From: a virus
Length of the DNA: 46,039 bases
Direction: 5' to 3' (one strand)
Virus record (IMG/VR): IMGVR_UViG_3300030117_002597
Coordinates: 1 to 46,039 of that record
Shown here: positions 4,999-40,845 of the stretch, piece by piece
Layout: each line of letters opens with the position of its first letter
Position numbering within the stretch: position 1 is the stretch's first letter
Translations under genes and position numbers: made by a program
The notes under the pieces: generated by a model
What the model was told of the DNA's origin: nothing
Databases searched by the model: none
The model's input: only the letters and a program-made list of their open reading frames with translations

Positions 4999-5639
4999 TA
5001 GCTTCTACCTATTCTCTGACTATCATCTCTATATGAATCTACTTTATTATCACCCTCTCCTAAAGTTTTTAATCTAGCTAAAGCTTGATCATATCTTTTT
5101 TCGTAGGTTGCCATAAGATCAGGCTCTCCTTTCATGTAAGTATAAGCTTCTACCAAACATCCATACAACAATGCATTCTCAGCATTAGTTGATAACCATG
5201 TAGTTCCTGAATCAGAACCAGCTGTTAGTGAATCTGGTTGATAGAAATAATGTAGCTCTACTGTATAACCAGAACCTGGTGTTGGTCCAACAATAAAAGA
5301 TGTATTATCAAACAAAGCATAATGCTTTGGTACTCCTGTAGTAGAAGCATTTGGATAAGCCTCTCTTATAAAGTTAACATCTTTAAATAAAAGAAACTCT
5401 TGTGAACTAGAGTTTGTAATACTTAAAGAAAAGTTGTCTAAAAAATCTGTTGGTGTTGATAGATATTGATTACCTGATGTTAAATTTCCTGTAACATTTT
5501 TTCTAAACACAGGAAGCTTAACTGTTTTAAGTATTCTTGTTTCTGCTTGTTTAATTATTGTAGGCAAATCTGCTACAAAAGTAGCTTCTGTATTTTGTAA
5601 ATAATCTTGTATTAAACTTTTTAATTCTGAGTATGTCAT
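4998..5639 (-). CDS. Head-tail adaptor protein
   Basis: This 213-residue protein begins with a helical segment (MTYSELKSLIQDYLQNTEATF) followed by IIKQAETRILKTVKLP and a beta-rich middle with YLSTPTDFLD. This resembles phage adaptor proteins that dock on the portal ring (P22 gp4 or T7 gp11-like family members in marine podoviruses). The position between another adaptor-like gene and the tail genes supports the role. The gene overlaps the upstream zinc-finger gene by 4 nt. Its residues DSYRDDSQRIGRS at the end are a typical polar tail. The function is assigned by family resemblance and context, not by a catalytic motif. Confidence 0.6.
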   Translation of the reverse strand: MTYSELKSLIQDYLQNTEATFVADLPTIIKQAETRILKTVKLPVFRKNVTGNLTSGNQYLSTPTDFLDNFSLSITNSSSQEFLLFKDVNFIREAYPNASTTGVPKHYALFDNTSFIVGPTPGSGYTVELHYFYQPDSLTAGSDSGTTWLSTNAENALLYGCLVEAYTYMKGEPDLMATYEKRYDQALARLKTLGEGDNKVDSYRDDSQRIGRS

Positions 5640-5950
5640 CCTATTGTAATTTTTACATCTCCTATATTGCCTCTTAAGACTATGCCACTGCTATTAACAG
5701 GATCAAAGCCAAAGTAAACAGTTGAATCTTTTTCTCCGCTATCTGGTCTTGCATTAAATAATGCTTGTGAATCAGAAGTATTTAGTTTGCCTACTTGATA
5801 TTGTGGTTGATCTGGATCAAAACAATTCTTACAAACTCTTAATCCATTTCTAGTTTCATTTTCTATTTCATATTTAAGCTCATTAAGCTTGTATGAAAAT
5901 CCACATCTATCACATATACCTAGTGCTTTTGAGCCTACTGCATAAGACAT
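5636..5950 (-). CDS. Small zinc-ribbon structural-module protein
   Basis: This 104-residue protein has a clear four-cysteine zinc ribbon in its N-terminal half: CDRC near residue 13 and CKNC near residue 40. The C-terminal half is beta-like and ends in GNIGDVKITIG. Small zinc-ribbon proteins lie among the neck genes of several marine phages, but their role is unknown. The gene is coupled to the following adaptor gene by a 4-nt overlap. It may bind nucleic acid or stabilise the neck. Confidence 0.55.
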   Translation of the reverse strand: MSYAVGSKALGICDRCGFSYKLNELKYEIENETRNGLRVCKNCFDPDQPQYQVGKLNTSDSQALFNARPDSGEKDSTVYFGFDPVNSSGIVLRGNIGDVKITIG

Positions 5951-5952
5951 TT

Positions 5953-6645
5953 TTAATAAACACTACCACCTGGTACAAACTTTACTGCTGCTCTTTCTCT
6001 ATCAGCATCAGAAACTTCATCCCATAGCTCCATATATCTTTGCCTAATCATGTTAACTCTATTCTGAGCTTCAGGTTCTTTACAGGCTATATTATATGCT
6101 AGTGCATAAGTTAAGCATGGAAGATATCTTGCTGGTACATCTGCATTATTACTTGCAACACTACCTGCATCTTCAATTCTTTTTATGTAGTCATAAACTA
6201 AAGTATATGTTTGTGCATCATCAGGCGTTGACCATAAAACTATATTAATACCACCAGTACCTTTATCAGCATAAAACTGAGTAGGCTTTGACCTAGATAG
6301 TTTCTTTGCTTGATGGTTGTACTGTGTTCTAGATATTCTAGTAAGTTGTTGATCAAACTGTTTATCAGTATCTCCAGAATCTGTTCGTATAAAAGCATCA
6401 ACTATCTCTAACGCAGAAGTTTCTGCAGCATAGCTGCTAGTGCCTGCAGTTAAAGCTTGAGTTGCTTGTTCTATCTTCCAAAGGTTTAAGCCTTTGTTTT
6501 GCCATTCTAAAAATATAAGATTTAAAGCACGTCTTGCAGTTCTATAATCATAACCAGAACGCATAGTAAGACCGCATAGTTCATATGCTTCTTCCATGAT
6601 ATCTGATAAATCTAGATTAAATGTTGTTGTACCGCTTGTTGCCAT
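5953..6645 (-). CDS. Head-tail connector / DNA-stabilisation protein (P22 gp4-like)
   Basis: This 230-residue, mainly helical protein starts with a low-complexity segment and then reads NLDLSDIMEEAYELCG, followed by RTARRALNLIFLEWQNKGLNLWKI. That helical pattern, and the later YIKRIEDAG and RYLPCLTYALAYNIA segments, match the family of packaged-DNA-stabilisation or adaptor proteins that sit below the portal. Position downstream of capsid genes and upstream of a second adaptor agrees. It is separated by 3 nt from the upstream small gene. Confidence 0.6.
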   Translation of the reverse strand: MATSGTTTFNLDLSDIMEEAYELCGLTMRSGYDYRTARRALNLIFLEWQNKGLNLWKIEQATQALTAGTSSYAAETSALEIVDAFIRTDSGDTDKQFDQQLTRISRTQYNHQAKKLSRSKPTQFYADKGTGGINIVLWSTPDDAQTYTLVYDYIKRIEDAGSVASNNADVPARYLPCLTYALAYNIACKEPEAQNRVNMIRQRYMELWDEVSDADRERAAVKFVPGGSVY

Positions 6646-8793: not shown

Positions 8794-8818
8794 AAAGAGG
8801 GGAGCAAAAGCTCCCCTA
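8794..8818 (-). terminator. Rho-independent terminator after the major capsid gene
   Basis: On the minus strand an 8-bp perfect stem AGGGGAGC / GCTCCCCT with a TTTT loop (8799-8818) is followed by CTTTT. It lies a few bases past the capsid gene's stop codon. The T-run is short, so termination may be partial, giving much capsid mRNA and less of the downstream genes. Confidence 0.75.
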
Positions 8819-17612: not shown

Positions 17613-17762
17613 TTCTACATGGAGGAAATTTATAGAACAGAGGAAACGAAAAAAAACATGGGAGAGTTTACTGGCTCTCTCTCAGTCATAATCCAGTAAC
17701 GTACAGCTTAGACTGGTGGAAAACCAACACCACGATGCTCGGAAAACGAAACACCAAGTGGT

Positions 17763-17813
17763 CTGATAAGGATATGTGTTTATCCTCTGACGATTGCAAA
17801 AGCATGAAATCAG
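17763..17813 (+). ncRNA. Type III hammerhead ribozyme, copy 1
   Basis: The order of parts is that of a stem-III-open hammerhead. Stem III 5' strand CTGA (17763-17766), cleavage triplet AUA with predicted cut after A17768, stem I AGGATA / TATCCT with loop TGTGTT (17769-17786). Then come core CTGACGA (17787-17793), stem II TTGC-AAAA-GCAT (17794-17805), core GAAA (17806-17809) and stem III 3' strand TCAG (17810-17813). The core's variable position 7 is C, which hammerheads tolerate. The pair at 10.1/11.1 is U-U instead of the usual G-C and stem III is short, so activity may be slower. It ends 24 nt before the next ATG. Confidence 0.8.
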
Positions 17814-18167: not shown

Positions 18168-18532
18168 TTACAAAAACTTATTCTCAAATGATGAAAGGTA
18201 AAATCATCAATGGTCTTCTTGTAAGAAGTGATATTGCTCATAAGCAAATGGGTTCTGTTAAAAGATGGAACGGAAAACATTATGAGGATATTCCATACGA
18301 TATGAATAAACCGATTAACAGATTTACTAAGGAGGAAGTAAGAGAAATCATACTGGGTATGGAAGTCGGAGACAGCATACAACTAAGAAGCGAAAGTGAA
18401 AGAAATATATTTCATAGTGTTGCTAGACAACTTGGATGGTATGAGGATATCTATGTCAAGCTTCAAAGCAGAATGATAGAAGTGGATTCGGATAACTTCT
18501 ACTTAATCCTTAGATTGTGGAGGACAGAATGA
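18164..18532 (+). CDS. Hypothetical protein
   Basis: This 122-residue protein (MITKTYSQMMKGKIINGLLV) is a soluble mixed alpha/beta protein with NRFTKEEVREIILGMEVGDS and a C-terminal segment DSDNFYLILRLWRTE. I do not recognise a family. The ATG at 18164 is chosen over one 12 nt upstream because GGAGG (18154-18158) lies at the right distance. Start and stop overlap the neighbouring genes by 4 nt on both sides (ATGA), so the three genes are coupled. Confidence 0.6.
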   Translation: MITKTYSQMMKGKIINGLLVRSDIAHKQMGSVKRWNGKHYEDIPYDMNKPINRFTKEEVREIILGMEVGDSIQLRSESERNIFHSVARQLGWYEDIYVKLQSRMIEVDSDNFYLILRLWRTE

Positions 18533-18639
18533 TTTACTTGATCAAGCGAGAAATCGCTAAGAATCTTGAATTGTATCTTGCCTTGTTGAATGTACCAGTG
18601 GCTATCTACATAACGATAATATTTGTAATAGGAGGTTAA
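18529..18639 (+). CDS. 36-residue single-pass membrane peptide
   Basis: A small gene that starts at an ATGA overlap with the preceding stop. It encodes MIYLIKREIAKNLELYLALL followed by NVPVAIYITIIFVIGG. The C-terminal half is one hydrophobic membrane span (about residues 15-35) after a basic amphipathic N-terminus. It is too short to classify. With the upstream membrane protein it could form a membrane-active pair. The gene ends 7 nt before a strong hairpin and the second ribozyme. Confidence 0.5.
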   Translation: MIYLIKREIAKNLELYLALLNVPVAIYITIIFVIGG

Positions 18640-18645
18640 AAGCTT

Positions 18646-18662
18646 GGGGAGCAATGCTCCCC
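18646..18662 (+). other. GC-rich hairpin abutting hammerhead 2
   Basis: GGGGAGC-AAT-GCTCCCC is a perfect 7-bp GC-rich stem with a 3-nt loop, immediately 5' of stem III of the second ribozyme. There is no T-run after it, so it is not an ordinary terminator. After self-cleavage at 18669 it would cap the 3' end of the upstream mRNA fragment and could block exonucleases. Its stem sequence resembles the capsid-gene terminator stem at 8799-8818. Confidence 0.6.
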
Positions 18663-18715
18663 TCTGCTATCAAGATGTGTATCTTGACTGATGATTGCGA
18701 AAGCATGAAAGCAGA
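18663..18715 (+). ncRNA. Type III hammerhead ribozyme, copy 2
   Basis: Stem III 5' strand TCTGC (18663-18667), triplet CUA with predicted cut after A18669, stem I TCAAGAT / ATCTTGA with loop GTGT (18670-18687). Then come the canonical core CTGATGA (18688-18694), stem II TTGC-GAAA-GCAT (18695-18706), core GAAA (18707-18710) and stem III 3' strand GCAGA (18711-18715). Stems I and III differ wholly in sequence from copies 1 and 3 but stay complementary, which is strong evidence for selected RNA structure. Stem II has U-U at its base, as in copy 1. It ends 30 nt before the ATPase start. Confidence 0.88.
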
Positions 18716-18745
18716 ATATTAATTGTTTTAAATCGTGGAGGTAAT

Positions 18746-19801
18746 ATGAATTTAAAACCAACTAAAGCTAGACAGGTAATGTTATCTGTCTTGCAAGGGA
18801 ACAATGTTCCTTTTTTACTAGGCGGAACTGGTGTCGGGAAATCGGCAGTAGTGAAGCAATTAGCGAGTGATCTTGCGGGAGACTGCAAGGTAGCTTTAGA
18901 TGAGATTAATCCTAAGAAAGATGAATACGGATTCATTGATTTTAGATTGTCTCTTTATGAATCTGTTGATCTTGGCGGACTGCCATTCATAGATGACAAC
19001 AATACTCAGCAGAGAGCCTTTCTAGGTAATCTGCCAGTGGGTGGCAATGGGCTACTATTCTTTGATGAATATGCTCAAGCTCATCCCTCAGTACAGGCTA
19101 TCGTAGGCCAGTTGATCTACGAAAGAAGACTGGGCGAGTATGTGTTGCCTAAAGGATGGAAGATTATCTGTGCGGGTAACAGAGCCAGTGACAGAGCGGG
19201 TAGTAATAAGCTTCCGTCTCATGTTATTGGCAGATGTTCAATGATTAACTTTGAGCATGATTTTGATGACTGGTCTAACTGGGCTATGAAAAATGATGTC
19301 CATTCACTTGTGATGGGTTTCTTGAATTTTCAACCTAATGCATTGAATGTATTTGATGCCAAGATAGCCGAGCCACAACCAAGTCCAAGATCATGGACAA
19401 GACTGAGTGATACTCTGAAGACTAATCCGTCAAAAGATATGTATCAGAACATTGCTCAGTGTGATGTCGGAGAGACTACTGCGATTGAGTTTGCTAACTT
19501 TGTCTCTCTTGTTGATGATGTTCCAAACCTTACAGGAATACTGAAAGGTAAGGATGTCGAAGTAATCGATGATCATGGATTATGTTATGCAACTTGTATT
19601 GCTCTGCTTGACAGAATAGTTAATGCATCTGAGAAAGAAGTCTATAGCTTCTTCGAGAATGCTTTAGCTTATGTTAAGCAATTCGATACTCCCGAGTTTG
19701 CTATCTTCTTTGTAAGACAAGCAGTAACTAAAAGGGAAGAGTTGAAAGAGACTTCGGTCTTTGCAGAGTTTAAAGTCGAAAACAAAGACTTAGAATATTA
19801 A
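18746..19801 (+). CDS. MoxR-like AAA ATPase
   Basis: This 351-residue protein is an AAA+ ATPase of the MoxR/RavA-like kind. Walker A is GGTGVGKS at residues 26-33, Walker B LLFFDEYAQ at about 103-111, and a sensor-1-like asparagine lies in IICAGNRASDR. The segments YESVDLGGLP and LPSHVIGRCSMINFEH fit MoxR-type ATPases, which remodel or insert metals into partner proteins together with VWA proteins. Here the VWA partner is two genes downstream. The ATG at 18746 follows GGAGG by 4 nt; any earlier start would lie within the ribozyme. The gene begins the second ribozyme-delimited segment. Confidence 0.85.
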   Translation: MNLKPTKARQVMLSVLQGNNVPFLLGGTGVGKSAVVKQLASDLAGDCKVALDEINPKKDEYGFIDFRLSLYESVDLGGLPFIDDNNTQQRAFLGNLPVGGNGLLFFDEYAQAHPSVQAIVGQLIYERRLGEYVLPKGWKIICAGNRASDRAGSNKLPSHVIGRCSMINFEHDFDDWSNWAMKNDVHSLVMGFLNFQPNALNVFDAKIAEPQPSPRSWTRLSDTLKTNPSKDMYQNIAQCDVGETTAIEFANFVSLVDDVPNLTGILKGKDVEVIDDHGLCYATCIALLDRIVNASEKEVYSFFENALAYVKQFDTPEFAIFFVRQAVTKREELKETSVFAEFKVENKDLEY

Positions 19802-19817
19802 CGGGTAAATATTTATT

Positions 19818-20786
19818 ATGACTAATAAAAATAAAACTTTACTGTCTGAGAAAGCTGTTCTTGTTCGTTTCACAACGAAGCATTGGAGTGGTATAAAATC
19901 AGATAGAAATCTAAGAACGAAGTTAGCTGAAGATACAAAAGCTAATTCAGACTTATTAAATGTTCAGAAACATTTGGTGGGTAAAGCCCATGACAAGTTT
20001 TTCAGAAGAATAATTAATAAGGTTAGGAATGACTTTTACTATCCAATGACTTTGCCTTGGGATGACAACTCTACTGATGTTGATGACAAGGTAGTCAGTG
20101 GGTGGAGACTTTGTCCCAATACTCAGCTAGATAATCTGAGTGAAGCTATGGATACTGCCAAGAAAGATTTCTTCAAAGAAGTGGATGCTTTTATAAAAAG
20201 TTATCCGCAGAAAATTGAGGAAGCTAAATCTCTACTTGGGGATGCTTTTAACAGAAGCGATTACCCTTATGACTGGGAGATAGAGAATAAATTCAAATTT
20301 GATTTTGAAACTAATCTTATCTCTCAGTATGGCAGTGACTTAAGGTTAGATGTCTCTGAGACTATGCGAAAGAAAATTGAAAACGATGTGGAGAATCGTA
20401 TCAAAAATAATGTCGCTACTCAGACTAGAGTTATTGTTGAAGCTCTTGTTGAGCAAGTCGGTCACTTAGCTGAGAAGCTTAAAAGCTACGACCCTAAAAA
20501 TGTTAAAAAGGGTGGCTTCTTCAAGGATTCTAGTGTCGATAAGCTGAGACAAGCTATCCAAGTATTGCCATCATTTAACGATAGTGTATTCGGTAGTGAT
20601 GATGACATTGCTAAGGCACACACTAATCTAGTGGCGGTTATGTCCAAGATAGATTCAGTGGATTCACTGAGAGATCAGTCAGCAAGTGGTAAGAGCAAAA
20701 GAGATCAAGTAGCGAGTGATCTTGAAAAAGCTATCGACCCATTGAAAGATGATTTCTTAGGTAAGCTAGGAGGTAACAATGGATAA
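19818..20786 (+). CDS. Hypothetical protein between MoxR ATPase and VWA protein
   Basis: This 322-residue protein is mostly helical, with coiled-coil-prone stretches (NVENRIKNN region around 190-200, EALVEQVGHLAEKLKSYD, and DSLRDQSASGKSKRDQVASD). No catalytic motif is visible. Its constant place between the ATPase and the VWA/metallopeptidase gene suggests it is the third subunit, possibly an adaptor. The upstream region has no good Shine-Dalgarno but carries the dispersed motif GGGTAAATATTTATT (19803-19817). Its end overlaps the next gene by 8 nt. Confidence 0.65.
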   Translation: MTNKNKTLLSEKAVLVRFTTKHWSGIKSDRNLRTKLAEDTKANSDLLNVQKHLVGKAHDKFFRRIINKVRNDFYYPMTLPWDDNSTDVDDKVVSGWRLCPNTQLDNLSEAMDTAKKDFFKEVDAFIKSYPQKIEEAKSLLGDAFNRSDYPYDWEIENKFKFDFETNLISQYGSDLRLDVSETMRKKIENDVENRIKNNVATQTRVIVEALVEQVGHLAEKLKSYDPKNVKKGGFFKDSSVDKLRQAIQVLPSFNDSVFGSDDDIAKAHTNLVAVMSKIDSVDSLRDQSASGKSKRDQVASDLEKAIDPLKDDFLGKLGGNNG

Positions 20787-22128
20787 GCTTATAAAATGTA
20801 GGTCTAGATTAATGAGGGGTAATGTAGGTATAGCAAGTATGCTATTACCTCTGCCCTTTGTGAAATCTGACTGCGAGACTATGGCTACGGATGGGAAAAG
20901 TATTTTCTATAATCCTAAGTTTGTTGATGATCATACAGACGAAGAGATTGAGGGGGTTCTCATCCACGAAGCTTGTCATGTTATTTGGGAGCATCCTTTG
21001 AGAAAGGGTAATCGAAATCATAAGCTGTGGAATGTTGCTTGTGACTATGCCATCAACAACTATCTTCTTTATGACTTAAAGATGGAGTTACCCGATGGCG
21101 GTGTATGGGATAGAGAATATCATAAGATGTCTGCTGAACAGGTCTATCATATCCTTGATACTGATGACGATGCTTTAGATAAAGCTAAGAAGCAGATGCA
21201 AGGCAATGACGATTCAGAAGATGAGCAAGACGGAGAAGACGATTCCGTTGGAAGTCAGGAAGAATCATTGACTGGTAAATATTCTTCTGAACAGCAGGAT
21301 ACGTCTGGTACAGTCAGTAGCAAGTACGATGATATCCCAACATCTATTGGAGAAGTCATCGAGCCAACTGACGATGATGGTAAGCCCTTATCTAAAGAAG
21401 CCCTTGAAGAATTGGCTAACAGTATCCGAAAGCAAATTGTTTTAGGAGACAAGCTAGTCAATATGTCTGAGGGTCAGACCAATGCTCTTAGTGGCAGAGT
21501 GGAACAGATGAGAACCGCTTCTGTTGATTGGAAGAATCATCTTCGAGACTGTTTGGAATCTGTTATGGCTAATGACTACTCATGGTCTAGACTTAACAGA
21601 AGACACCAGTGGAGAGGTATCAATCTGCCAAGCAAAACTAAGTCTGCTAATGGTGGCGAGATAGCTATTGCCATTGATACATCATGCTCAGTATCACAAG
21701 CTGAGTTAGATTATATGGCAAGTGAAACACAACTCATGCTAGAGGAATGCGGAATAGATAAGATCAGAGTTTGTTACTGTGATCATGTTGTCCGCAAGAA
21801 TCATGATACGGATGAGTGGTGGGATACTTTTGATATCTCAATGGGCGATGAAATTGAGTTTAAGTTTCGTGGCGGAGGATATACTAAGTTTGAACCAGTG
21901 TTTAATCTACTCAAAGATTACACTGACGATGACCAAGATATCAAAGCCTTGATATATTTCACTGATGGCTATGCTTCTGTCAGCAGTGAACACGAACCCG
22001 ATATCCCAGTCTTTTGGGGATTGACTTCAAGATGGTCAGACGAATTGGATAATCTTGAAGACAGATTCAGAGATAACATTCCATTTGGAGAGTTTATTGG
22101 GGTCGATTGCTCAGAAGCTTATCGTTGA
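20779..22128 (+). CDS. Metallopeptidase-like / VWA domain protein (DUF2201 type)
   Basis: This 449-residue protein has two domains. The N-terminal one carries a zinc-binding HEACH motif (His63-His67, followed by VIWEH) in the context GVLIHEACHVIWEHPLR, as in putative metallopeptidases of the DUF2201 group. Residues about 125-170 are an acidic linker. The C-terminal VWA domain has the MIDAS motif DTSCS (300-304), a conserved GGGYTKFEPV segment and FTDGYASV (Asp396). VWA proteins of this kind act with MoxR ATPases. The phage role is unknown; host protein remodelling or virion assembly are possible. GGAGG precedes the ATG, and the start overlaps the preceding gene. Confidence 0.85.
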   Translation: MDKLIKCRSRLMRGNVGIASMLLPLPFVKSDCETMATDGKSIFYNPKFVDDHTDEEIEGVLIHEACHVIWEHPLRKGNRNHKLWNVACDYAINNYLLYDLKMELPDGGVWDREYHKMSAEQVYHILDTDDDALDKAKKQMQGNDDSEDEQDGEDDSVGSQEESLTGKYSSEQQDTSGTVSSKYDDIPTSIGEVIEPTDDDGKPLSKEALEELANSIRKQIVLGDKLVNMSEGQTNALSGRVEQMRTASVDWKNHLRDCLESVMANDYSWSRLNRRHQWRGINLPSKTKSANGGEIAIAIDTSCSVSQAELDYMASETQLMLEECGIDKIRVCYCDHVVRKNHDTDEWWDTFDISMGDEIEFKFRGGGYTKFEPVFNLLKDYTDDDQDIKALIYFTDGYASVSSEHEPDIPVFWGLTSRWSDELDNLEDRFRDNIPFGEFIGVDCSEAYR

Positions 22129-22136
22129 TATCGTGT

Positions 22137-22168
22137 GGGTAGGATACTTTTTAGGGGGTATCCTACCC
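22137..22168 (+). other. Strong 11-bp hairpin after the VWA gene
   Basis: GGGTAGGATAC (22137-22147) pairs perfectly with GTATCCTACCC (22158-22168) across a 10-nt loop. It starts 9 nt after the VWA stop. Only two Ts follow, so it looks more like an mRNA 3'-end stabiliser or attenuator than a terminator. It lies about 65 nt before the third hammerhead, a parallel to the hairpin before the second. The stretch between (22169-22232) has no convincing gene. Confidence 0.6.
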
Positions 22169-22232: not shown

Positions 22233-22291
22233 ATTCTGTCTAGGAAATGGGTATTTCCTACTGATGAGTGGCTAAAGCCATGAAACAGAAT
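22233..22291 (+). ncRNA. Type III hammerhead ribozyme, copy 3
   Basis: Stem III 5' strand ATTCTG (22233-22238), the classical GUC triplet with predicted cut after C22240, stem I TAGGAAAT / ATTTCCTA with loop GGGT (22241-22260). Then core CTGATGA (22261-22267), stem II GTGGC-TAAA-GCCAT (22268-22281), core GAAA (22282-22285) and stem III 3' strand CAGAAT (22286-22291). Every invariant hammerhead core nucleotide is present and all three stems pair. The base of stem II is a G-U pair. This is the best of the three copies. It ends 28 nt before the next ATG. Confidence 0.93.
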
Positions 22292-23809: not shown

Positions 23810-23818
23810 TAAAAATTA

Positions 23819-23855
23819 GGCGGTAGCTACTTAGGTAGTTACCGCCTTTTTTTTT
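23819..23855 (+). terminator. Strong rho-independent terminator
   Basis: GGCGGTAGCTAC (23819-23830), loop TTAG, GTAGTTACCGCC (23835-23846) forms a 12-bp stem with a single G-U pair, followed by nine Ts (23847-23855). It closes the ribozyme-bearing operon. Confidence 0.93.
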
Positions 23856-24014
23856 GTCTAAAATTTCTCATGTTCTGTGAGAGACGCATAAAATAATTAA
23901 CCAGTAAATATTTTTTTTGGTGAACGCCTCGATCCTGTGGTGTCTGTCGTATTTTTTTCCTTGAATCCCTTATAAACTCTTGCATTTTGCTATCTCTTAG
24001 TTTAGTATTTTTAC

Positions 24015-32464: not shown

Positions 32465-32823
32465 TGATTGATTATTATGAGCAGAAGCTCAAAGAAAGAA
32501 AAGAAGATTGGTGGGAATGGCATAAGCAGAATCCTAAAGTGTGGATAAGGTTTAGGGATTATACCTTAGAGGCAATTAAAAGTGGGAGGAAGAGTTATTC
32601 TCAGTGGGCGATAATAAATCGCATAAGATGGAATGAGGAGATTGAGACAAGGGGTGGGGAGTTTAAGATTAGTAATAACTATATAGCTTTCTATGCTAGA
32701 TTGTTTCATGCCAAGTATCCTCAGTACAAAGACTTCTTTAAGCTCAAGCCTTTCAAAGAAGAGAAAGAGATAGAGAACTTAGAGAATCTAGGGTTGGATA
32801 GAGAAACTCGCTTGTTCTCTTAA
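32464..32823 (+). CDS. Hypothetical protein, end of the recombination operon
   Basis: This 119-residue protein (MIDYYEQKLKERKEDWWEWH) is helical and aromatic-rich with SYSQWAIINRIRWNEEI and a second half YIAFYARLFHAKYPQYKDFF. The latter pattern is found in small proteins next to Ref-like nucleases in marine phages, without known function. Its last 36 nt overlap the 3' end of the convergent giant gene, so no bidirectional terminator separates the two operons. Confidence 0.6.
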   Translation: MIDYYEQKLKERKEDWWEWHKQNPKVWIRFRDYTLEAIKSGRKSYSQWAIINRIRWNEEIETRGGEFKISNNYIAFYARLFHAKYPQYKDFFKLKPFKEEKEIENLENLGLDRETRLFS

Positions 32824-35800
32824 TTCGGGCATATAGGCTAGTCTTATATCTCTTTCTACCTCCATCTGTTCTAGTATCTCTTTTTTCTGTTGAGGTGTTA
32901 TTGTCTTTGAATTTAAAACTCTATCTCTTCTTGTTCTCCAGTTAGACATATACCTATCTAAAGCCAATATTTGTGGTCTTGTTCTAGCTACTCCTGCATT
33001 GTTTTGCATATAAGCTCTCAGATCATCTATCCTGCCATCTTTCTTAAGCTTGTTAACAGTCTGTATATAGCGATTACTTTCTTCTCTAAGCTCATAGAAT
33101 TGTTGTTGTAAGCCACCACCCATCTCTGTCTGAATAAATCTTCTAAAGAATGGAGCATTCTCTATTCTCGGCATAATAATATCCCTATCTGTTTGTGTTC
33201 TTACTAGAGTATCTGTTAGGGAAAGTAAGTATGTACCAATTGTTCCACCATAACCTCTCATTAAATATTCTAGTTTAATAGGCGAAACTCCTATCGCTTC
33301 TCCTATAACTCTAGCAAATTCATTGGTTGAGTATCTAGATTGCAGTGCAGGTTCTAATCCCTCTTGCATATAGTAAGGCACAATTGCTTCTCCAGTGTAT
33401 GTGCTTTTATTATTAAGAACTTCATAAAGAGGTTTTATTGCTTGAAAGCCTAATGGGTCTACTTTAAAAGTGACAGAAGCCTGTCTCCTTAAAGTCTTCA
33501 TTGTTTCCCCTATTGTTTCGTCACCAAAAGCTAAATCAATTGCCCTCTCTGGTAACACTTTATACATAACACCTACCTCAAATGGTATAGGTATTTTTAT
33601 AGCAGGAACTCCCTCTGCAAAAGGTATTATCCAGTTATCATCTCTGGTTTCTCTTCTTGCATTCTTATATTCTTCGTCATCGCTAACTAGGGCATAATAT
33701 ATACCAGTCAAAAATGCAAGGAAAAAACCTCGCAGAAGTGTGCCAACTGCAATAGCCCTTGCCATATCACCTCTTGTTTCTCCTAGAGCTTGTTTCCTAA
33801 CAGCAGAGTATCTACCTAAGTGTGCTCTACCTAAGACATCTAATCCCTGTAGCCTTGCATTTAGGAATGGTATTGCTGAAGTGATTGTTCTAAACAGTGG
33901 GTCAGCTCCTCTTCTACCAAAGTTTATTACTTCTAATCCTTGGAAAGCTGCCTCAGATAGACTGCCAGTCATCTCAAAAACTTTGTCTGCTACTGCTTTT
34001 CTAGTAGCTCCATCTGATTTGGTTGTTTGTGCTCCCATAATATCCCATAGTTTTACTACAGCATCAGTTGCACTTAATGAACCATTGTTACCTACACCCA
34101 TTTTTCTTAATTCTTTGTTGATATATCTAGAAACATTTTGTGGGTCATTGGAAAAATCGTAACCACCAATAACACCAAATCTTTCTAAATCTGACAGATC
34201 AGCATTAAAGTTTTTAAAGGTATCAACAAATGGTATAAAGTTTGCTCCTGATGTTACAGCAGTAGAAAGAGTATCTCTCAACATATTTACCATAATAAAT
34301 CCAGGATCACGGGTAACCATTTCTCTAAGGAATCCTGCAGGCATAGCTAAAAGTTTTGAAATGAATCCCATTTCATTCATACCCATAGCTTGTAAACCAT
34401 TAATCATCAAAGGATCAGCAACTCTATAAAATACTTTTTGTCCATTCATAAATACTGGTAAGACATCTGCTCCTGTTGCTTGATCAGGTGGTATTCTTAC
34501 CGCCATAGCAGCTTCTTCAAATTGAGTGACTAACCTTTGCAGTCCTGCATTCTTCATTACAGCAGTCACTATTGCTAATTGATTTCTAGCTATAGCTTCT
34601 AATGGAGGCACATCTATAGATGCTTCACTACCTTTTAAATCTATATTAAGTGGATTTCCTGCAATAAATCCTGAAGCTACATTTGGTCCAGCAACTTTTT
34701 CATTTTCCATCTTTCTATAGAAAGGATAGTAATCAGAATTATCTTTCCATATTTGAGCTGTTCCTCTAGTATCTATGGCATAGTCATTAGCTATCTCTAG
34801 CAATCTATCTCTGCTTGTTCTTGGTGAAACTAACTCGGATGCGTTATATCTAAATTCAAAGTTTTTATTTGCTTGAGTTTGTTCTTGTACAAATTGAACT
34901 ATTCTTTCTCTAAGTTGAGTGGCAGTAGCCTCCTCACTAAGTATTCCGCCTTGAACAGCAAAGTCTATAATTTTATTGTTGTAAGCTTGAAACTTATCAT
35001 AAACTTGTTTTACTACAGGAAAGTCTGTTGCTATCTTAGCAGCTTTTGCTCTTAGCTCTTCATTAACTGGAACTTCTTTACCTTCTGTATTAAGTCTCTC
35101 TGCTCTTTGACCAATAGAATATACTTTATATAAAGCTTCTAAGTTTACATTTGGATCAGAAAATAAAGGTGCAATTATTTGTAATAGACCACCATGCTCA
35201 AACTGATCTACCATGACACCACCATAAGTAAGGTCTGAGTTTTGTATAAAGTCTATAGTTTCTTGACTGTATCCTGCTTTTTGTAATACTTCAGTTTCTA
35301 CTGGTGCGAATACAGGTATGCCTCCTTTAAGCATAGCAGCAAAAATACCTCTTGCTCTTTCACTCATACGCAAAGCAGATATTGCATTTGTATCTGCAAG
35401 ATTATTTAACTCTCTAGCTATTTCACTTTTATCTCCTGCTTTAAGTGAAGCTATTTCAACTTGATTTAACTTATCTATATATGCTGTCTTTCCTGCATCT
35501 AACCATTTAGTTATAGTACCGCCCATCTCTGCAGTATTTAATACAGTATCAACCATTGATTCATTAGGTTGATTAATGCCTCCAAACTCATCTACTAACT
35601 CTTCATATCCTTTAGGCACTTTTGCTTGGCTTCTATGAAACTTTGCAGGTATAGGTGGTATATCCATATCAACTCCTGCTTCCATGTCGAAAGCTATCTT
35701 AAGAGCCACTGGACTTGCGTTTGGATTGTATAGAGGGATTCTACCCCTTGCTAACATTTCCGCTCTTTGACGAGCCTCTGATTGAACCTCAGCTATATCT

Positions 35801-38800
35801 GCATCTGTAAGGTCTACTTCTCCTGCTAGAGCAGAGTTAGGTTGTAAGTAAGGTGGTACGTTATTAGGCTCGAAACCTATTTCTTTGGCGAACTGTCTGT
35901 AGTTTTCGTAGGCAGGGAGATAAAGATCACGGAGGGCGGCTCTTGATAAATCGGATGATTCGAGGAGACTTCCTCTATCCCCAAGTCCTCTAATACCTGA
36001 TTTAGTTCCTGGGGAGTAGCTGCTTTGCTCTCCGTATTCAATGTATTCGCTTTCTTGACCATATTTTTTTAAAGTATAACCGCTGCCCTTTAGTCTTTCA
36101 AGTATCAACTCAGAAAAACTTCTAAGGTCATTAGCTGTATATGTGTCAGATACAAAAGAAAGTGGGTCTATTAAAACTAAACCACTTCTATCTGTTGGCA
36201 TTAAAGTAAAGTTTACATCATCACCTGCTCTTTTTAATTGAGATAAATTATTGTTAAGTTCTTGTAACTCAGGAACACTAAATCTTCCACCATCAATTTT
36301 TTCTATTAACAATCCTGTTTTTTTAATTCCTCTTTCAACTGGTCTAACTGTTACTGAAGCGTCTTGCATAAAAGCATCAGTGAGTAATTGTCCTACTGCT
36401 CGAACAGTGCTTTGTTCTGCTCCAGGCATCTTCAATAATATATTTGGATTTAAGTCACCATCATATGTTCCAGCAGATATAGTTGCTTCATGTGGTATAG
36501 ACAATTCACGCAAGAATCTTATTTGTGTACCTGCCATAACACTTTTTAAAGTTTTGTTTTGATAATCTAAAAAAGTTGCAAAAGGTATTTCTTTGGCAAA
36601 ACTTGTAGGCAAGTAACCTCTAGTTGTGCCCATCTTCATTTCTGTTATTAAAGTTGGAGCTGCATTAACTATTGACTGGTACATATCTGTTTTCAAGCCA
36701 GTATCAAATACATTTGTTTTAGTATCACTCCTGTAGGTAGGAGCATGAATAAAGACACCTGAAAATGGTCTGTCTTTAGAGAAAGAACCAGTATCTTGCA
36801 TCTCGTTTAATTCAGCTATCTCTTTCTGTGATGCTCTAACAGATGAATTGTAACTACCTTCGTTTGTTATTTTTGTAGGACCATAATGTCTTTGGTCAGC
36901 CCATAGTAATGCTTGTATTTCTCTTGGTACAAATTGTCTTGATGCACCACCTACATTATAGTTTTCTGTAGACAACAAATCGATTAAAGTCTGTATGGTT
37001 CTGTATTCTTTTTCATTAGCTGCTTCTAAATTCAAACCAAACTTTCTCAACATATGTACGTCTACAACTGAAAATGGTGTGAATCTATTGTTAGCTGCTT
37101 CTAATATTTCTAAAGCATAAGTAGAAGTCTTTTGTCCTGTGCCTTGTCTATTAAATAAACCTGTTTTATATATTTTAGCTATATCATTTAATCTAGCATT
37201 ATTGTTCATAGCTACTTTAAACTTTTTGAGTTCAGCTATATATTTTTTTGGTTGTTCAACTGGATCAATCTTTCTTGCTACAATCATGGCTCTTAAAGTA
37301 TCTTTAAGATTTTGTTCTGGTTTGCTTTGTGCTGATGTAATACCAAAGATCATAGAAAATTCATTCATATTAGAAGAACCAACTATGTTAGGTATACCTG
37401 CACCCCATCTGTCGTACCAGAGAAAGTCTCTACCATCTTTAACTGCTCTTCTAACATCTGCTTTCAAGCTAGAATAATCAGTCCAGTTATGTTTTCTTCT
37501 AGAGCCTGATGCATTTAATACAGTCTGAATATCTTTGCCTGTAAGATTTCTATTATTGGCAATAAACTCATCGGCTAGAGATCGTTCTAGTTCTCCAGGA
37601 AATATTATGTTCTTAGGCACAATACCAGCTCTAGAAAGTTTTGGTTCTAACCCATATTTTTTTCTTATCTTTGCAATAAATTCAGGACTAGCCCTATCAC
37701 TAGGAACACTTGCAGCTTTTAATTGTTCTTCTAAAGCAGCAACATCGTTACTAGCTTGAAGTATTCTTGCAGATAATCTTTTTTGATTATTTGCACTCAT
37801 TGAACCAGCCTCTTGATACATCTCAGATTCTAAAGCAATAAGTCGTGATTGTGCATTATCTAATTCTTTTTGTATATCACCCTTACTGAATTTTGTTGTA
37901 AGAGAAGCTATAGGAAATCCTAGTTCTTGTAACCTTTCTAATTCTTTTAAGCTTCTTATTTTGTCTCTATCTCTTCTGCCTATTTTTCCTGATTCTATAT
38001 CATTTAAAACACTAATAGGACTTCTGAAACCTGAACCAAAGATAGCGTCAAAGAAACCTTTAAAGAAATTTATAATTTTTTGTATGATAGTTTTAGGTTT
38101 GCCCTTAACAAAACTAGGATCAGCTCTATGAAATCTAAACAACTGTGCTACATATTCTTCTTGTATATCAATCTCTGTATAACTTGGGTCTTCACCATAA
38201 ACTTTATTTATTCTTTCTATCTCTTCTGGCGGTAATTTTTTCTTAGCAAAGTTTAAAAGATTTTTATATTCTTTATCAGTCAATAAATCTAAGTCTCGCA
38301 AAGCATGAATTGTTTCATGATCAATTAAACCTTGTATTTGTCCTATTAGCTCTTGATCTGATAGTCTGCCATCAGGGTCTATCCTTGTCATGTTAAGCAA
38401 TATCTTACGCATAGCTGGATCATATGCAGCTTCATCTGTTACATTTTCTGATATCACTGCTTCACCATCTACAATTCTTACATTGGTAGCAAGTTTTAAT
38501 GACTTATCTAGTTTCAAAGCAATATCTTTAAGACCTAATTCATTAAGTCTTTTCCTGGCAGCATCATATAAGAAAGAATATTTTTTTAATGAATCAGGTG
38601 GCGGCAACATTAATATCTCATCTGATGAAATAGAATCTGACTGGTTAATATTATCTTTACCTACTACACCTAGTATTTCTTCTTCTGTAAGTGGTGTGCT
38701 TTCTCTTAGTCGTTGAGCAAACTCTTCACTAGATTCATTAAGGCTTTGTGCTCTTTTAGCTTGACGAGTTTCAAAATCTTGAGATATAACTAATCTATTT

Positions 38801-40845
38801 TTTATCTTATCTGCTCTACCACTATTAAGTAAATCTTCTTTTAACAACTTAAATTGTTTAGGAGATAAACTTTCTCCAGTAATGTCTTTTATTTTAGCTT
38901 TTAAATCTTTCTCAGTTAAAGTCTGACCTTTGTTATCTGTGTATAAAGTATTTAAAGTATTAGCAGAATATGGTCTAGGTGTATAATCTGGAAGTTTTGT
39001 TGCGACATCAAATCTAGGTAGCTGTTTGATTCTTGTCATCAACAATTGTTTTTGTCCACGATTCATACCATCAAATGTTTTAGCACCTGTAATGCTTTCT
39101 ACTAAATACTTAAAAGCAGAAGAATTGTAATCAACAATAATATTTTTACTTTCAAAAACTTCATTAAAAGATTTTTTTGTAACTGTCTGTTTTTCTCTTG
39201 ATCTTTTAGCTGCAATAATTTCCCCTAGCAAAACAGAATCTCTAAAAATAATATTAGCTTTTTCTGCCATTAAAGCATCAAAGTCTGCTTTTGATAGTAA
39301 TCGTTTTGCTTCTTGAGGAGTGTAGTAAGATTTTTTTGCTATACCTTTTTTTTCTGCTTTCGCATGAACTTGACCAACAATACTAGAAGAATCTATTTTT
39401 TGTCCACGTATAGGATAGTAACCAGTTTTAGTTTTTTTTCGTTTAGTATTTATAGTTGAATCTAAAGCACCTACTGCTTGCACTGGTATTAAGTTATATC
39501 TTGGGTCATATAGTTTTGTGCCTAAAGAATAAGCAGTTCCATTACCATAGAGACCATTAATAGATAATATTTCTTTAGTTGCAAAGTCTATAAACTCTGC
39601 TCTTTTATTCTTTCTTAATTCAACTGCAGCTTTTGCAGCACTTTCAGGATCAGGAAAGACACCATAATCAATAGCTGTATTCATACCAATAATGGATGAT
39701 GTACCATTAGGATTAGTAATAATCTCAAACTCCTCCATAACTGGAGGGTCTTTAAATTCTAATGTTGATTCGGGGAGTGTCTCTTGTTGAGGACCAACAA
39801 TTTCAGGGATTGGTTGTGGGTCTAAAGCTATATCTCTTACTTTAGAACCATCATCTTCATATTTTTGAAAATCTTTTCTAGCATTAAATCTTTGTTTTTC
39901 TCTTTCTTTTCTTACTATATTTTCTTCTTCTCTCATATAGTCCGCACCAACACCATGATCGTGCATAGGACCACGTAGCACTAAGTCAGCAAGGAAACCA
40001 ACTGCACCACCAACTGTAAGATCATCCATAAAGCTTTCGCCTATTGGTATCTCATCACTATAAATACCTCTAGCTACAGCATCTTGTGCAAGACCTGCAA
40101 CTGCTTCTTGTAGTGCTTCTGCAGTACCTGTTTGTAAAGCACCACCAATTCTTTGAGGAATTTTTAATATCTCACCAGCACCTTTTGGAATGTACCTAAA
40201 TAAATATTGCAGTGACAAGACTTCACTTGCACCAATTGCACCACCAAAAAGTTCAGCTGTAATCTCTTGAGCTAGACTTACATCTTCGCCTTGTTCTCTA
40301 GCAAACTCTATATTTCTGCCTTGCTCTGCTATACCTGCAGCTACACCTAAGCTTCCAGCAGTATACATAGATGCTCTTTGTGCTCTACTTATTTTATCTG
40401 CAGCACTTAAACCTTTGCCTGTATATCCTGCAGCTTTACCTGCAAGACCACCAGGTATAAAGAAAGAAGCAAAAGAACCTAATCCTCCTCCTAACTTAGA
40501 GGAAAAAGCATCTTCATAGCCTTCTCCTATACCTATGTATGCATTATCGTTTAAGTTTTGTTGCCATTCTCTAAGTTGGTTACCTAATTCGCTGTCATTA
40601 CCTGCATCAAATAAATTAACAGCACCTTCTCCCATTGAAAGTAAGCCTTGTGCAAATCCTCTAGGAACACCTTTAGCAACTTCTAATAAATTACCACCAA
40701 ATGTTCTTTCAACTTCTTCTTTAAAAGGTTGATAATAATCAGGATATAGTTCTGCTAGCTGATTATTAATTGAAATTAATTCTTCTCTTGAGGCATCATC
40801 ATCTACTTCTAGATATCTGCCATCAGGTAATTTATATACTGCCAT
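32788..40845 (-). CDS. Giant polyvalent internal virion protein
   Basis: This 2685-residue protein is of the size and position of ejection proteins (T7 gp16, or the large polyvalent proteins of marine podoviruses). The N-terminus (residues 1-250) contains hydrophobic Gly/Ala stretches such as GLGSFASFFIPGGLAGKAAG that could enter membranes. A zinc-peptidase motif HETIH lies at 843-847 in LIDHETIHALRDLD. Residues about 1090-1360 carry an HhH/glycosylase-like segment (FGITSAQSKPEQN, VVDVHMLRKFGL, VPREIQALLWADQ). Residues about 2160-2400 match the LPD38-type domain (FLREMVTRDPGFIMVNMLRD, then LRGFFLAFLTGIYYALVSDD with a membrane span). It is injected with the DNA and probably acts on the host envelope and cytoplasm. 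It has no Shine-Dalgarno. Confidence 0.8.
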   Translation of the reverse strand: MAVYKLPDGRYLEVDDDASREELISINNQLAELYPDYYQPFKEEVERTFGGNLLEVAKGVPRGFAQGLLSMGEGAVNLFDAGNDSELGNQLREWQQNLNDNAYIGIGEGYEDAFSSKLGGGLGSFASFFIPGGLAGKAAGYTGKGLSAADKISRAQRASMYTAGSLGVAAGIAEQGRNIEFAREQGEDVSLAQEITAELFGGAIGASEVLSLQYLFRYIPKGAGEILKIPQRIGGALQTGTAEALQEAVAGLAQDAVARGIYSDEIPIGESFMDDLTVGGAVGFLADLVLRGPMHDHGVGADYMREEENIVRKEREKQRFNARKDFQKYEDDGSKVRDIALDPQPIPEIVGPQQETLPESTLEFKDPPVMEEFEIITNPNGTSSIIGMNTAIDYGVFPDPESAAKAAVELRKNKRAEFIDFATKEILSINGLYGNGTAYSLGTKLYDPRYNLIPVQAVGALDSTINTKRKKTKTGYYPIRGQKIDSSSIVGQVHAKAEKKGIAKKSYYTPQEAKRLLSKADFDALMAEKANIIFRDSVLLGEIIAAKRSREKQTVTKKSFNEVFESKNIIVDYNSSAFKYLVESITGAKTFDGMNRGQKQLLMTRIKQLPRFDVATKLPDYTPRPYSANTLNTLYTDNKGQTLTEKDLKAKIKDITGESLSPKQFKLLKEDLLNSGRADKIKNRLVISQDFETRQAKRAQSLNESSEEFAQRLRESTPLTEEEILGVVGKDNINQSDSISSDEILMLPPPDSLKKYSFLYDAARKRLNELGLKDIALKLDKSLKLATNVRIVDGEAVISENVTDEAAYDPAMRKILLNMTRIDPDGRLSDQELIGQIQGLIDHETIHALRDLDLLTDKEYKNLLNFAKKKLPPEEIERINKVYGEDPSYTEIDIQEEYVAQLFRFHRADPSFVKGKPKTIIQKIINFFKGFFDAIFGSGFRSPISVLNDIESGKIGRRDRDKIRSLKELERLQELGFPIASLTTKFSKGDIQKELDNAQSRLIALESEMYQEAGSMSANNQKRLSARILQASNDVAALEEQLKAASVPSDRASPEFIAKIRKKYGLEPKLSRAGIVPKNIIFPGELERSLADEFIANNRNLTGKDIQTVLNASGSRRKHNWTDYSSLKADVRRAVKDGRDFLWYDRWGAGIPNIVGSSNMNEFSMIFGITSAQSKPEQNLKDTLRAMIVARKIDPVEQPKKYIAELKKFKVAMNNNARLNDIAKIYKTGLFNRQGTGQKTSTYALEILEAANNRFTPFSVVDVHMLRKFGLNLEAANEKEYRTIQTLIDLLSTENYNVGGASRQFVPREIQALLWADQRHYGPTKITNEGSYNSSVRASQKEIAELNEMQDTGSFSKDRPFSGVFIHAPTYRSDTKTNVFDTGLKTDMYQSIVNAAPTLITEMKMGTTRGYLPTSFAKEIPFATFLDYQNKTLKSVMAGTQIRFLRELSIPHEATISAGTYDGDLNPNILLKMPGAEQSTVRAVGQLLTDAFMQDASVTVRPVERGIKKTGLLIEKIDGGRFSVPELQELNNNLSQLKRAGDDVNFTLMPTDRSGLVLIDPLSFVSDTYTANDLRSFSELILERLKGSGYTLKKYGQESEYIEYGEQSSYSPGTKSGIRGLGDRGSLLESSDLSRAALRDLYLPAYENYRQFAKEIGFEPNNVPPYLQPNSALAGEVDLTDADIAEVQSEARQRAEMLARGRIPLYNPNASPVALKIAFDMEAGVDMDIPPIPAKFHRSQAKVPKGYEELVDEFGGINQPNESMVDTVLNTAEMGGTITKWLDAGKTAYIDKLNQVEIASLKAGDKSEIARELNNLADTNAISALRMSERARGIFAAMLKGGIPVFAPVETEVLQKAGYSQETIDFIQNSDLTYGGVMVDQFEHGGLLQIIAPLFSDPNVNLEALYKVYSIGQRAERLNTEGKEVPVNEELRAKAAKIATDFPVVKQVYDKFQAYNNKIIDFAVQGGILSEEATATQLRERIVQFVQEQTQANKNFEFRYNASELVSPRTSRDRLLEIANDYAIDTRGTAQIWKDNSDYYPFYRKMENEKVAGPNVASGFIAGNPLNIDLKGSEASIDVPPLEAIARNQLAIVTAVMKNAGLQRLVTQFEEAAMAVRIPPDQATGADVLPVFMNGQKVFYRVADPLMINGLQAMGMNEMGFISKLLAMPAGFLREMVTRDPGFIMVNMLRDTLSTAVTSGANFIPFVDTFKNFNADLSDLERFGVIGGYDFSNDPQNVSRYINKELRKMGVGNNGSLSATDAVVKLWDIMGAQTTKSDGATRKAVADKVFEMTGSLSEAAFQGLEVINFGRRGADPLFRTITSAIPFLNARLQGLDVLGRAHLGRYSAVRKQALGETRGDMARAIAVGTLLRGFFLAFLTGIYYALVSDDEEYKNARRETRDDNWIIPFAEGVPAIKIPIPFEVGVMYKVLPERAIDLAFGDETIGETMKTLRRQASVTFKVDPLGFQAIKPLYEVLNNKSTYTGEAIVPYYMQEGLEPALQSRYSTNEFARVIGEAIGVSPIKLEYLMRGYGGTIGTYLLSLTDTLVRTQTDRDIIMPRIENAPFFRRFIQTEMGGGLQQQFYELREESNRYIQTVNKLKKDGRIDDLRAYMQNNAGVARTRPQILALDRYMSNWRTRRDRVLNSKTITPQQKKEILEQMEVERDIRLAYMPELREQASFSIQP

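Follow-up and report, generated by a model that had tools for sequence, protein, structure and literature searches.

GC-rich hairpins accompany type III hammerhead ribozymes in phage genomes and may cap the 3′ ends of upstream mRNAs

The stretch of DNA analysed here (the window) covers all 46,039 bases of an IMG/VR virus record, is marine in origin and carries tailed-phage genes. When the 7.5 kb around the finding were searched, a 250-bp stretch of the Pelagibacter phage HTVC109P was the only nucleotide match to an isolate phage. The + strand of the window carries three type III hammerheads, at 17763–17813, 18663–18715 and 22233–22291 (hammerheads 1, 2 and 3), each located 5′ of a gene's ribosome-binding site. 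Hammerhead 2 is preceded by a 36-aa open reading frame (ORF) for a likely membrane peptide (18529–18639, + strand; also called as 18517–18639, from an upstream GTG) and followed by an AAA ATPase gene (18746–19801, + strand; phrog_1297, E = 2e-75), ahead of which GGAGG is found at 18737–18741. Together with a DUF3150-like gene and a VWA/metallopeptidase gene (19818–22128, + strand), the ATPase gene makes up the unit between the predicted cut sites of hammerheads 2 and 3. Elsewhere in the window, the − strand encodes a 2685-aa protein (32788–40845) for which Pfam gave a single match, to an LPD38 domain at the C terminus.

Between the 36-aa ORF and hammerhead 2 lies a GC-rich hairpin, GGGGAGC-AAT-GCTCCCC (18646–18662, + strand), with a 7-bp stem and an AAT loop, which is also present as a copy in the relative L007. 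It starts 6 nt past the stop codon and its end touches stem III of the ribozyme, which begins at 18663; this contact with the ribozyme, reported in a preliminary description of the DNA, was confirmed by sequence and fold. Its folding energy is −13.6 kcal/mol (z −2.9), matched by 2 of 200 shuffles; hairpin and hammerhead 2 taken jointly adopt the expected fold with −28.4 kcal/mol (z −4.0), a value that none of 200 shuffles reached. When strong hairpins in the window were defined by a stem of 7 bp or more, with 6 or more G–C pairs, and a loop of 3–8 nt, only four distinct ones were found in the 46 kb (18646–18662, 22137–22168, 23818–23847 and 8798–8817) and none in five shuffled windows. The hairpin at 23818–23847 is terminator-like, with a T8 run after it. 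The one at 8798–8817, on the − strand, has the identical 7-bp stem (GGGGAGC/GCTCCCC); it lies after the major head protein gene, has no hammerhead and is followed by TCTTTTC. No U-run follows the hairpin at 18646–18662, where the sequence reads TCTGCTAT, so that it does not qualify as an intrinsic terminator.

The core and stems of hammerhead 2 could be read directly and were recovered in the fold: stem III (TCTGC/GCAGA), the U16.1–A15.1 pair, stem I (TCAAGAT-GTGT-ATCTTGA), CTGATGA, GAAA, and stem II (TTGC-GAAA-GCAT) with a U–U flank, which is a departure from the common hammerhead form. Its cut is predicted after A18669 and would leave a 7-nt tail, TCTGCTA, beyond the hairpin. Hammerhead 1 (+ strand) belongs to the same stem-II family, has its predicted cut after A17768 and carries no 5′ hairpin of the strength defined above; the cut of hammerhead 3 (+ strand) is predicted after C22240. 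By direct reading, all three contain the type III core (CUGANGA … GAAA, with U-H before the cut), and in the fold stems I and II are loop-closed and stem III is open. Against Rfam RF00008, hammerhead 3 scored 39.7 bits (E = 3e-5), under the gathering score of 48.5, and hammerheads 1 and 2 gave no match at E up to 1. The core and stem II of hammerheads 1 and 2, CTGANGATTGCNAAAGCATGAAA, were found in at least 118 viral-contig stretches; among the matches listed, 89 distinct ones had stems I (6–8 bp) and III (3–8 bp). Because these two stems are paired though absent from the search pattern, the matches look like true hammerheads. A BLAST search of isolate phages with the ribozyme returned PaP3-like relatives only; the stem-II family to which the window's ribozyme belongs was not represented. 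A genome scan gave four matches, of which two, in Flavobacterium, lacked the ribozyme stems and were rejected.

The region 17690–17760, 5′ of hammerhead 1, was initially taken for a new RNA motif; it is coding in four relatives (L102, L427, L589 and L590) and was therefore dropped as an RNA element. In these relatives a conserved short peptide end like HSFDYxRGYEFGKRxTKRL lies 5′ of type III hammerheads, and the related stretch of the window is 17690–17770. The TAA stop of this peptide spans the predicted ribozyme cut site, so that cleavage would strip the upstream message of its stop codon.

A second hairpin, of 14 bp (22137–22168, + strand; z −4.75), lies 8 nt past the VWA stop codon and is conserved in the relatives L006, L130 and L131. 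The preliminary description had placed it in the equivalent position between the VWA gene and hammerhead 3; the hairpin is real but is not fused to the ribozyme, since it sits 64 nt 5′ of stem III. We also observed a recurrent palindrome-like motif around ATATTTACTGGTAAATATT, perhaps a site for a protein or a promoter. It occurs in L011, L017, L040, L015 and others, as well as in the window near 23900 and 25200; it often forms the core of longer hairpins that precede hammerheads and is also present elsewhere in the window.

To survey viral hammerheads, we gathered them from IMG/VR with five core/stem-II patterns, those for the topology test being neutral to topology, and assigned each to type I or type III. 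All counts refer to the matches listed, which are an arbitrary sample; genes were called as open frames rather than taken from annotation, and under the simple hairpin criteria bulged or 5-bp hairpins were scored as absent. In the CTGANGATTGCNAAAGCATGAAA family, a strong hairpin was found within 50 nt 5′ of stem III in 31 of 47 non-redundant contexts among the matches listed. In controls the rate was 3.7% for random same-strand windows, 6.5% for windows placed at an equal offset 5′ of other genes, 15% immediately 5′ of other ribosome-binding sites and 5% for shuffles. The hairpin sequences vary between contexts. The pairing of hairpin and ribozyme is thus not an accident of one phage. The preliminary description had named related phages as the place to look for such pairs, and there the proposal stood: they recur in many unrelated contexts, with type III ribozymes specifically.

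Across three families, the 50 nt 5′ of the ribozyme held a hairpin in 58/95 type III and 13/148 type I hammerheads among the matches listed (Fisher p = 2e-18; redundant loci were filtered at 72% flank identity rather than by phylogeny, so this and the other p values take loci as independent). Taken family by family, again among the matches listed, type III gave 29/45, 16/25 and 13/25, and type I gave 6/69 and 7/77, that is, background. Hairpins no more than 5 nt from the ribozyme were seen in 46/95 type III versus 1/148 type I hammerheads listed. Two further stem-II families, analysed with the criteria fixed and filtered against the first set, served as replication and yielded 23/50 type III versus 5/103 type I (p = 3e-9, matches listed); the type III counts split into 8/26 in the weaker family and 15/24 in the other, the type I counts into 3/46 and 2/57. 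Over all five families, 81 of the 145 type III matches listed carry a strong 5′ hairpin, compared with 18 of 251 for type I, which is the background level. In mean folding energy, the 30 nt touching the ribozyme reach −9.5 kcal/mol at type III hammerheads and −2.8 at type I, with a baseline near −3.3; the energy profile dips sharply once, in these 30 nt, at type III, and shows no such minimum at type I. For neither type was structure enriched 3′ of the surveyed hammerheads. The preliminary description had proposed that the pair sets the stability of both cleavage products; for the downstream product this leaves the ribozyme's own stem I as the sole basis, and that part of the proposal was not upheld. 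In a separate observation on the viral-contig matches listed, the UGA inside the core CUGAUGA is the stop of the upstream ORF in 41/251 type I and 2/145 type III hammerheads, so that the ribozyme core doubles as a stop codon.

The arrangement extends to isolate phages. PaP3-like Pseudomonas phages (Bruynoghevirus) and UFV-P2 carry a type III ribozyme with a hairpin adjoining stem III, as in the window, and PaP3-like members have the stem-II U–U flank in common with it. Unlike the window hairpin, theirs contains a bulge and a conserved inner portion, and the start codon overlaps stem III or follows it immediately. The outer stem is fully replaced between AAAGGGG/CCCCTTT in one group and ATCATCC/GGATGAT in UFV-P2. 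In the PaP3-like phage Clew-1 the hairpin adjoins the ribozyme, yet no same-strand gene is annotated upstream. A similar inner sequence, CCGGCTACGCCAA..TGCCAAGGTTTGCCG, was found in L133, L377–L379 and L381 (PaP3-like), L380 (UFV-P2) and L382 (phage Bertil); it lies in a bulged hairpin near the left end of these different Pseudomonas phages, adjoins the hammerhead in PaP3-like phages and UFV-P2, and matched no family in an Rfam search. In PaP3-like phages (L133, around 1018–1066) a likely Shine–Dalgarno sequence lies in hammerhead stem II, and in some of these phages the 3′ strand of stem III contains the start codon, so that ribozyme folding and translation start may compete.

In the 58 type III cassettes with a hairpin among the matches listed, the distance from hairpin to predicted cut is mostly 5–8 nt (median 7), and the median spacing between upstream stop codon and hairpin is 8 nt in such cassettes listed. 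The idea that the tail is held constant by a trade-off between stem III length and distance was dropped, as the correlation is weakly positive (rho 0.27). Type I ribozymes located after genes have a stem III no stronger than those without an upstream gene.

On these grounds we consider that the locus is probably a self-processing, RNase-free cut-and-cap cassette, in which the hairpin guards the new 3′ end of the upstream mRNA. Its structure, recurrence, position and restriction to type III are what the analysis shows. Such a cassette would run from stop codon through GC-rich hairpin, type III hammerhead and leader to the next gene. In the cell, the type III ribozyme would cut the polycistronic phage RNA a few nucleotides beyond the hairpin, and the upstream mRNA would then end in a stable hairpin, a 5–8-nt tail and a 2′,3′-cyclic phosphate. 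This capped end would slow 3′ exonucleases, and the half-life of the upstream message would be extended. A stabilising processing cassette had been suggested in the preliminary description; recurrence and type III specificity are as protection of the upstream 3′ end predicts, whereas the downstream product and the position of the hairpin near hammerhead 3 do not bear the suggestion out.

The restriction to one topology can be rationalized from known hammerhead architecture. Cleavage by a type III ribozyme would release the 5′ arm of stem III with the upstream RNA, which would then end in a short bare tail, whereas with type I the closed stem III hairpin would remain on the upstream RNA; an added cap hairpin would therefore be needed only for type III. 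In keeping with this reasoning, in the closest relatives, L004–L007, the same ATPase gene directly follows a type I hammerhead whose stem III forms a long hairpin. In L007, the closest of them, the ATPase gene is preceded by a hairpin and type III cassette, a small gene and a type I hammerhead (5485–5970), and the leaders before each gene are alike. RNase II reportedly stalls 5–7 nt before a duplex and RNase R reportedly needs an overhang of at least 5 nt (PMC10240344), and efficient action of PNPase is reported to require a 3′ hydroxyl (PMC3014915). From the stall distance of RNase II and the 3′-hydroxyl need of PNPase, the predicted end should resist both enzymes; RNase R might still enter it. 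More generally, we lean towards the view that phages possess a two-part, RNase-independent 3′-end device, made of a type III hammerhead and a dedicated hairpin that is needed only with that topology.

A different role for the hairpin, as a folding aid, is possible though unlikely: stacked on the short stem III at its open end, or shielding that stem from sequence upstream, it could promote efficient folding and cutting rather than mRNA stability. A type III bias is predicted here too, and in many GTCC- and GGC-family cassettes hairpin and stem III are 0–1 nt apart, as stacking requires. In the window's own stem-II family, however, the distance is often 3–10 nt; stem III is not shorter with a hairpin than without (4.8 versus 5.0 bp); and hairpins are commoner where a gene end lies just upstream (p = 0.002 and p = 0.012 in two analyses), which a pure folding role does not predict.

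The hairpins might instead reflect a general phage habit of placing post-stop intercistronic hairpins (as stabilisers, or for effects on ribosomes or polymerase), next to which the ribozyme happened to land. Such hairpins are indeed present at about 30–35% of ordinary junctions in the same phages at which no hammerhead was detected, some junctions so counted, though not most, holding hammerheads missed by the automatic filter. We nevertheless regard an origin unrelated to the ribozyme as improbable, given hairpins at 64/90 type III versus 89/253 other junctions (odds ratio 4.5, p = 4e-9, about a twofold excess), at only 3 of the 26 type I hammerheads with room for one, and in tight placement against the ribozyme. 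Since post-stop hairpins are common at ordinary junctions, the cassette hairpin is probably a specialised use of the general habit. The modest size of this excess, the weaker replication family, the gene-adjacent type III hammerheads that lack any clear hairpin, and Clew-1 with its missing upstream gene all count against the cut-and-cap model.

L007 shares with the window a block of about 125 bp (window 18630–18754) that contains both hairpin and ribozyme, and the adjoining genes differ, including the gene directly upstream of the hairpin. The two elements could accordingly travel jointly as a homology block for gene exchange, the hairpin having no role in RNA, but this is very doubtful, because hairpin sequences vary across families at constant pairing and position, and descent of a single block explains neither this variation nor the type III bias. 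Among similar hairpins (four sequences only), paired changes convert GGGAGC/GCTCCC to GGGAGG/CCTCCC and an inner A–T to T–A, with pairing kept. That the hairpins, GC-rich and located after stop codons, are intrinsic terminators of the upstream gene, with the ribozyme acting on read-through RNA alone, is barely credible, since tails with 5 or more T among the first 8 nt 3′ of the hairpin occur at background frequency (3/58 cassettes listed, 5.2%, versus 5.0%), the window tail agrees, and the type III bias would be left unexplained.

Parts of the cut-and-cap model have precedents. Clustered phage hammerheads flanking genes were proposed as mRNA processors in 2011 (Perreault et al., PMC3088659). 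In the accessible portion of that article, several phage and prophage hammerheads flank single genes or short blocks, as in the window; they are proposed to divide long phage transcripts into shorter mRNAs, cleavage was demonstrated for some of them both in vitro and in E. coli, and a PaP3 hammerhead appears among the active variants. Unlike the present survey, that portion describes neither a stabilising 5′ hairpin nor a difference in flanking structure between types I and III. In the cip-cel operon of Clostridium cellulolyticum (selective RNA processing and stabilization, SRPS; PMC4423207), 3′ stem-loops at processing sites govern the levels of upstream, not downstream, transcripts, and stem-loop stability determines the upstream level. 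Like the cassette, cip-cel combines an intercistronic cut with a stem-loop that ends the upstream fragment, mostly without a U-run; its cut is credited to host endonucleases, whereas that of the cassette would be made by a predicted self-cleaving ribozyme with no need of a nuclease. The cassette shares with SRPS an intercistronic stem-loop just 5′ of the processing site and the lack of a U-run, the processing site being the predicted ribozyme cut. A literature search, with most subscription papers outside its scope, found no report of a hairpin with phage type III hammerheads or of its absence with type I. The idea of mRNA processing by phage hammerheads and stem-loop protection at nuclease-made cuts (SRPS) are thus already known, and the mechanism put forward here is well motivated but predicted.

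The topology rule, a hairpin with type III and none with type I, makes the general idea of mRNA processing sharply and cheaply testable, and provides a simple route to locate and rank hairpin–hammerhead cassettes. These cassettes are natural, compact parts that may tune the stability of one gene inside a transcript.
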